Below, one piece after another: positions 42,501-60,444 of a DNA stretch of 64,000 nucleotides. Origin of the DNA: Bolinopsis microptera. Taxonomy: Eukaryota > Ctenophora > Tentaculata > Lobata > Bolinopsidae. Where the stretch lies: assembly GCF_026151205.1 (NCBI RefSeq), contig NC_087082.1, forward strand, positions 1,516,001 through 1,580,000, in the 5' to 3' direction. Numbering within the stretch: the first letter of the stretch is position 1; each line of letters opens with the position of its first letter. Made by a program: the position numbers and the translations under genes. The notes beneath the pieces were generated by a model. It did not search any database, was not told the DNA's origin, and saw nothing but the letters and a program-made list of their open reading frames with translations.

Positions 42501-45500
42501 CCCGGGAAGCTAGAACCTGTGGTGGGGAGCAGGAATGTGGAGGTATGTGTTACCGGCAGTGGGCCTAGTTTTACAACCAGGGGCACACACACACACAGCT
42601 CGTCATGATTTTACACGAAAAGTTAGATGTGTTTGAAACACATTATTTTATCTGTGAGGAGTTGGGCCGGGCCAGAGAGGAGCTTGTTAGATCCCAATTA
42701 GACTGGACGCTCCATCTTAAGTATTAGGTTGCTCCTCCCCTCGGTGGCTCCACGAGGTTTGAGAGATAGAGAAATCCACCGTTCTAGAGAGAGAGAGAGA
42801 GAGAGAGGATATTTATATCAGGAGATTGAGAGTCGAATTGTGGGTTTATAAACTGTCTTTTTTTAATCTAAGGGCAATGTCTGGAAACAATGCGATTTGG
42901 TTTTGAAGTGTATCGTGATAGGGTTGCTAGGCGGGGGGAGTTTGAAGCCCTACCATGGTAACAACTTCTGCTTCTGAAAATTGAGCGGAATAACTGCAGG
43001 GCTCCTGGAAACTAATGAGATTTGGCTTTTGAGTTTTCTGTATCCAAAAAATAACCATCGAATTTTGATGTCTTCAAAGCTTTACTTCTAACATTCTCCT
43101 CAAATCTGTGGGATGAGTAGCTTGCCAATAACTCCCTGAATGTCATTTGACTCCTGTCAGATTGGATCTTGGTTTCGACACATTCTAACGAGATTACGAT
43201 CAGTAGCCCCGATATGAGTAAATAGTTCGTAGATCAATCTCAATTAACACTTTGGTCTCCAACATTGATAAGGCAGCCACTGATTGAGCAAGTCATCGTC
43301 TACACAACCAGTTTGAGCCATACTGTTAGGAAAGTTGATATCTTGCCAGAAAAGTCTGTCCTAACCTCAAGAGAGATTTAGGAGAAAACAGGTATCATTA
43401 TCAGCACAAAATAAAGTAGAATCAAACCGAACGGGGGCCACACACGACACAAACAGAAACACACAACAAACACTTTACCAGTGAGGAAATAATACCCTGA
43501 GCAAAGCCAACACAACCCACCCTACAACAACAACAAAACACACACTTAACTAACTCTCGGAGAAAAGTTAGAGTGGGTATAAATGCTGTATTTGCTCAGT
43601 CTAAATTTATATACCGCTGTGGCTGCTGCTGCTGCTGCTGCTGCTGCTGTCCGTAGAGTCTTCACTAAATGTTTGACATGACTGTCCGGGGTTTACAGGG
43701 CCGATAACCCCATTTAGTGACCTGCTCCGAGATCCACCCGTGTGGAATTAGTGGGACGTCAATAACTGTAGTTAAGGGGGGTACCGGAGCCTGGGGAGGA
43801 TGTCGTAGTGGTGTGAGTTATACCGCCCCGGTCCTGACTAACTTGTTCACTGAGATATTTGGGCAGTAATTCTGCTCGTCCTCCACTAACCCTTGTTACA
43901 GGAAATCTTAGTAAATGTACTCTCTCTAACAGTGAATACTGATCAGCTCTAATATGTAAAGCATGATATATTTATATAGCGCCCGTACATTTGTATGTCG
44001 ACAGGCTTTACTTACTTTCTCCAGACCGACTAATTTTTAAGCCAGGTAGCCCGGCCAATCCCTGACCACCTTGAAGACATGTGGGACTGCTGAGTCAGAC
44101 ACCATGGAGACCCGGTCTCTAATGTTAAGGGATTTCCTTGGATTTGTGACCTCATTTCAAAAATTTCTCCGCGAGCTTGGGAGCTTTCGTCCTGATTTGT
44201 TAAACGAACAATGAAGGTGTTTTGTACCGGCCACTCCTCCTCTCGTCTTATTATCTTTTTCGGGATGTTCAAACCCCAAGAGGGCAGCTTTATTGGAAAA
44301 TTTCTTTACTCTAAATCAAGGTTCATCTTACTGTAGCTAAATATACCATATATATTTCTCGGAATCCTTCACCCACACCACATGGTATTTCCCGAGAGCG
44401 TTTGTTTTCTCTTTTTTGTACGGTTTGAAACCTTATCAGGCGTACCTTTCTAATTCCCCTTTCCCAGTTTCTAATTCTTGATACTTTGTTTCTCTAATTC
44501 CTGTGATTCTCTGTATTACAGCTCAAATCCCTCACTTCCCCCGGCTCTTAAGCTTGTGTAATTGGTGTAGTGTAATATTATCCCGTAATCCGGTCCCAAC
44601 CCCTGCACTTAACCTCTCTATCTTGAGGCTTTCTACCCCGTATTCTCTGCTACTAATTATAATTAAAGACGATTTTATGAGATAATATCTCCATTGTATC
44701 GAGTAGAGACAGGCAGTGCACTGGACACTGCGACAATTACGAGAAAATTAATCCTGTGTGACGAAGATAATGACACACAAGCTGCTGTGTGAATGCAAAC
44801 TGAACCGCAATTAATTTGAGAACTTTCTCTAATCCTGTAGCTGAGATATAATGCTTTTAATCTAAACACCCCTTCCTCCCTCAGCGAAAGTCCGGCAAAA
44901 AGAACTGGATCTAGCCCGGAATTCTGAGCTCCACAAGCAGTTACAGTGTAGAGAATGGCAGTTGAGAGCAACCTGCGAGAACATCGCTCCACCCTGCTTC
45001 AGGACCCTAGTGGTAGGGGGAGCCCACACCCTGTTCGACCTCTCTGGAACCTTGGCTGAGGCATTCGGATGGAGCATCGCTCAGTACAACTATCGCAGTG
45101 GACAGGTGAGAGTCGGTTAGAGTGGGAGAAGTTGGGGAAATGTCACGGAAGTAAAGTTTGTGGGGATGCATGTTATGGAATTTTGAAATTTTGAATAATT
45201 TCTCTCCTTATATGTTATATGTCAACTTGAAAGTTGTTGAAATTTGGCAGATTAACCCCCGCTGATTACGGTGAATCGTTGTGTATGTTGCCGACACATC
45301 CACATCTAAAATAAATTACAAACATCGCCAGCCCTGAAAAGTTACCATACCAATTTTAGAATTAGTAGCTTACTTATTTCCTTTAGTTTTTACAATTACC
45401 AGTTGTGATACTATCTATTCTGTATAACCACGCCATCTATTAATAGCGGTGTATTGAAAGGAACTTTTACGACTCTTTCACGTAATTAATGATGAAATAA

Positions 45501-60444: not shown

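Follow-up and report, generated by a model that had tools for sequence, protein, structure and literature searches.

The window analyzed here, a 64,000-nucleotide stretch of ctenophore DNA, carries a seven-exon gene for a 503-residue protein in which two Cys-rich modules precede a PRiA4_ORF3-family domain with most of its conserved polar residues changed, and to whose likely role as a nuclear regulator we give an even chance. The protein belongs, as a divergent member, to a known domain family, and its architecture is new, conserved, and likely of ctenophores. Its features are as follows, with residues numbered along the joined protein.

39566..40301, + strand: exon 1, encoding the Ser/Pro-rich N-terminus (residues 1-146) together with the two N-terminal Cys-rich modules (exon joining)
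40037..40075, + strand: knuckle-like module, residues 158-170, C-X2-C-X6-H-X-C, predicted to bind zinc (sequence; invariant in eight sequences)
40151..40210, + strand: zinc ribbon, residues 196-215, matching Zn_Ribbon_1 (Pfam)
44885..45105, + strand: exon 2, linker helix and then the start of the PRiA4_ORF3 domain (exon joining, Pfam; end recurs in P0010)
45746..45841, + strand: exon 3, PRiA4_ORF3 domain (exon joining, Pfam)
46140..46218, + strand: exon 4, PRiA4_ORF3 domain with the GDW core (exon joining, Pfam)
46546..46679, + strand: exon 5, PRiA4_ORF3 domain, with PRCVDGER at the site of the changed PPED..GG loop (Pfam, alignment; end recurs in P0009)
58797..58910, + strand: exon 6, C-terminal part of the PRiA4_ORF3 domain, FDMNLLN (exon joining, Pfam)
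60313..60444, + strand: exon 7, C-terminal tail including the stop codon (exon joining, protein search of the assembly)
60367..60432, + strand: six-cysteine cluster, residues 479-500, C-X-C-X10-C-X-C-X3-C-X-C, ending the protein (sequence; identical in P0002)

The seven exons (39566-60444, + strand) join in frame without an internal stop to give the 503 residues, with AG/GT intron borders at all seven, one intron of 12.1 kb, and four introns interrupting the PRiA4_ORF3 domain. A database protein, P0001 (499 residues), equals the joined exons at 498 of its 499 residues, the sole difference lying at Q445, and its source contig has no more than 1883 bases. The introns are too long for such a contig, and P0001 therefore stems from spliced sequence and the exon junctions are real; its source tag, "lgn", presumably denotes assembled sequencing runs. 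The initial annotation had joined exons 2-6 in phase (44885-58910), described the domain as cut by four introns, and asked for the junctions to be confirmed, all of which agrees with the joined coordinates and with P0001; nothing was found to suggest that these exons are not joined. A protein search of the 264.65-Mb assembly (232 contigs, E up to 10) returned seven matches, which are the seven exons themselves (7/7), and the gene is therefore single copy at the sensitivity of this search. The six-frame search of its own genome with PF07929 gave no match, we think because a search of this kind sees single exons. Two observations rule out contamination: the 20.8-Mb contig carries the gene as seven exons flanked by intron borders, and a protein from a short contig matches it.

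Several other elements are present in the window. Intron 5 contains a 3.3-kb stretch (51126-54476) with 45-nt inverted ends that are 87% complementary, a G/C run beside TTAAAA-like flanks at the ends, and an interior that is repetitive and rich in TCC. Copies of its right end occur genome-wide, with 40 scored matches of 96-100% identity and 929 first-look candidates, and the stretch looks like a young, abundant DNA transposon. The same intron holds a nearly perfect 33-base tandem repeat (54813-55098, 8.7 copies, 99%). Elsewhere we observe an open frame for a nucleoside transporter (17832-19175, - strand; PF01733, E 1.4e-27), a partial reverse-transcriptase frame that is likely a retrotransposon piece (7616-8575, + strand; RVT_1, 21.1 bits, below the cut-off), and a long simple repeat (24342-24871), both strands of which are open in frame.

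With respect to domain identity, the region had been read as a pRiA4b ORF-3-like domain, and this reading is borne out. A Pfam scan matches PF07929 to residues 270-449 at 55.2 bits (E 9.2e-15; curated cut-off, 26.6 bits) over profile positions 3-172 of 173, such that a full-length domain is present; the relative P0002 also exceeds the cut-off (42.6 bits), and profile-profile comparison of two ctenophore-type rows with 31 prokaryotic rows gives a probability of 98.7 (E 1.9e-16). A chance motif match is ruled out by these Pfam scores and the profile-profile result. Both of the comparisons proposed for the domain, with the PF07929 model and with the MM3350-like fold, came out positive, the latter on the predicted structure. 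The domain thus resembles PRiA4_ORF3 (MM3350, PDB 2i1s) over its whole length and in predicted fold, and retains R285, W308, GDW, P390, C392, and G395. It differs in that introns interrupt it, three Cys-rich modules accompany it, and not one remains of ten polar residues of which canonical domains keep 6 to 10, whereas the six prokaryotic genes viewed in context, all from the plasmid collection, are stand-alone and of about 180-206 residues. NCBIfam gave no match for P0001 or P0002, and neither LolA nor flavin reductases nor ubiquitin-like domains stood out as kin in the fold comparison. In BFVD, two giant-virus proteins have a weakly similar predicted fold, namely, Barrevirus A0A3G4ZQD0 (E 4.3e-4) and Hyperionvirus A0A3G5ACM7 (E 8.3e-3).

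The change of polar residues was assessed against 56 prokaryotic domains (from 57 of 86 loci, one dropped), a set biased in that most of it was fetched by patterns derived from a single Streptomyces relative (128 relatives, 80 of them kept). Among the 28 columns in which one residue occupies at least 53 rows, the window sequence keeps 10 and P0002 keeps 9: P281, R285, W308, G368, D369, W370, P390, C392, and G395 are kept in both, and P401 in the window only. All three His columns are changed (H299, H312, and H372), as are four of the five acidic columns (D366, E377, E402, and D403, with E377 conservatively replaced by Asp) and most of the PPED..GG loop (P400, E402, D403, G406, and G407); further changed columns include Q303, R286, and Y365. 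Ten polar sites (LH..Q, H, YDFGD.W.H, and PPED..GG), picked afterwards for being different (the count free of this choice is the 10 of 28 columns kept), are conserved at 0/10 in both ctenophore-type rows, compared with 6-10 in 60 canonical rows (48 of which keep all ten) and 2-4 in 21 divergent rows. The polar signature of the canonical subfamily, a grouping of our own, is therefore absent from both ctenophore-type rows. The divergent groups were added to the comparison by a family-model sample of two phyla, and since their rows keep only 2-4 of the ten, change of the polar site occurs in prokaryotes as well, less completely. At eight core sites, also picked afterwards, the ctenophore rows score 8/8 and the divergent prokaryotic rows 2-4/8. 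Divergent prokaryotic groups (L136, L138-L148, and L163-L169) are without the PPED..GG loop and carry Phe at a position where all 56 rows have His; these groups are perhaps unnamed subfamilies.

Among the Cys-rich modules, the knuckle-like one (residues 158-170) has no Pfam family of its own and gives only a weak DZR match. Against Zn_Ribbon_1 (PF13240; cut-off, 25 bits), the zinc ribbon reaches 24.7 bits when the whole protein is scored, 28.0 when a 98-residue piece is taken, and 19.4 in P0002, and its cysteines 196, 199, 210, and 213 are invariant in four aligned rows. No Pfam match was obtained for the six-cysteine cluster (residues 479-500), nor for a C2H2 zinc finger in the protein. The modules would bind zinc.

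We searched approximately 5.8 billion proteins and recovered ten relatives (P0001-P0010), each of which corresponds to all or part of this gene: full-length sequences number two, six cover the exon-1 half, and two a single exon. The three protein searches (EukProt included; E up to 10 in two of them) require shared 5-residue words and limit length, and could thus overlook distant members in eukaryotes. Across eight exon-1 sequences (the window and P0002-P0008, with P0001 omitted as a near copy), 92 of the 98 positions of the zinc-module region (residues 147-244) do not vary, against 46 of the 146 in residues 1-146, and the domain half shows 90-91% identity between the two full-length sequences. 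All five unspliced exon-1 frames (P0004-P0008) stop aligning at one and the same position, as expected from a shared donor site; the match of P0010 breaks off where exon 2 ends and that of P0009 where exon 5 ends, and P0003, a gene model whose identifier we take to be of the Pleurobrachia type, continues differently beyond exon 1. With respect to the orthologue search suggested by the initial annotation, the gene recurs in ten related sequences, which we infer to be ctenophore sequences throughout.

The earlier statement that no metazoan version has been described is in line with the literature, in which titles and the openings of abstracts, mostly without subscription papers and supplements, revealed no animal PRiA4_ORF3 protein. 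The term "pRiA4" is absent from the main texts of PMC10027918, on transposon-derived animal factors, and PMC13342648, on metazoan transfers, and a function for the family is nowhere stated in the literature covered. None of the nine horizontal-transfer genes of Mnemiopsis leidyi in Table 3 of PMC6005172 is listed with a PRiA4_ORF3 domain, one of them (ML219316a) being uncharacterized and given no Pfam domain; they are comparable to the present gene as candidate foreign genes in a ctenophore, 8/9 with spliceosomal introns. CTEP1 and CTEP2, as presented in the part of PMC12221973 covered, offer a precedent for nuclear proteins kept among ctenophores and absent from other metazoans. Identity with them is ruled out, as the CTEPs are C2H2 zinc-finger proteins with DNA binding by DAP-seq, whereas the PRiA4_ORF3 protein has no C2H2 match in Pfam.

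The domain had been proposed to be a domesticated mobile-element or plasmid domain within a zinc-ribbon protein. The second half of this proposal stands, in that an animal-type genome does encode, in spliced form, a zinc-ribbon protein with a PRiA4_ORF3 domain. Domestication is unproven, since no transposase, recombinase, or plasmid gene was seen beside the gene in the window (7 open reading frames of at least 130 residues, 2 of them scanned), the family is also genome-borne (matches in 40 of the 118 genomes sampled in one phylum and in 24 of the 117 in a second), and the tree names no donor. Twelve prokaryotic transposons of the ISAzba1 group encode a pRiA4_Orf3-like protein, according to the part of PMC3942029 covered, and 90 of 72,556 plasmid records match the family, the best E among the 30 listed being 5e-8. 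As a separate observation, the same PRiA4_ORF3 match is found on six Nostoc sp. UHCC 0870 plasmids, and G179 (including contigs L001 and L149), likely the same Nostoc genome, has six copies of equal score, which suggests spread of the gene between replicons. In a quick tree of 83 rows, the ctenophore pair groups among the canonical rows (SH-aLRT 88), and no particular sister is identified; its stem measures 1.87 changes per column against 0.1 between the two ctenophore rows, indicating fast change and then a freeze. Scans of viral contigs (two, one of them weak, with its patterns in the linker) and genome contigs (one) with ctenophore-type queries gave no confirmed relative, nor was one found in a phage collection, and a close viral or prokaryotic source is not supported by them. 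The origin is most likely, if not provenly, one capture in the ctenophore stem from a prokaryote or another eukaryote. A fuller scenario, which we advance tentatively, is that a plasmid-type domain was captured before the split of living ctenophores, stripped of its polar site, and fused to zinc modules, yielding a phylum-wide single-copy regulator that would be a foreign-fold transcription or chromatin factor found in ctenophores only. Scattered eukaryotic PRiA4_ORF3 cases exist, and together with the four introns in the domain, the three exon ends that recur in the reading frames of other contigs, and a tree without a donor, they make it conceivable, with some doubt, that an old eukaryotic protein descended vertically and was lost in most animals, with no transfer at all; against this, the 5.8 billion proteins yielded only this gene's own relatives, although distant members could be missed.

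With respect to function, we infer nuclear location and regulation for the protein. The Ser/Pro-rich N-terminus, likely disordered, could recruit partners, and the knuckle and ribbon may contact DNA or RNA. The beta-grasp domain, together with the six-cysteine tail, would bind a partner or DNA in place of the prokaryotic proteins' own activity, the reused fold serving as a docking or DNA-contact surface. It is improbable that the protein still does what the prokaryotic family does biochemically, be it ligand binding or catalysis, with the zinc modules merely positioning it: the fold and the nine columns kept in both ctenophore-type rows would fit such a role, but the change of all three His and four of five acidic columns (conservative only at E377) and the replacement of five residues of the PPED..GG loop speak against it. 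Far slimmer still is the prospect of a far-diverged ctenophore SNAPC3 (SNAP50), an snRNA-promoter factor that, as a promoter-binding protein, joins a ubiquitin-like core to zinc fingers. SNAPC3 (PF12251) is absent from the Pfam scans at E up to 10, in which weak matches may be filtered out.

Beyond the initial annotation, the analysis brings to light the changed conserved polar residues, the recurrence in related sequences, and the terminal six-cysteine cluster. If the proposed reading as a nuclear regulator is true, an animal would here have made a regulator from a fold that was likely captured from an outside source, adding a binding fold to those of animal regulators and giving a handle on the PRiA4_ORF3 family, in which a polar site changed while the core is kept would offer a clean test of fold reuse.
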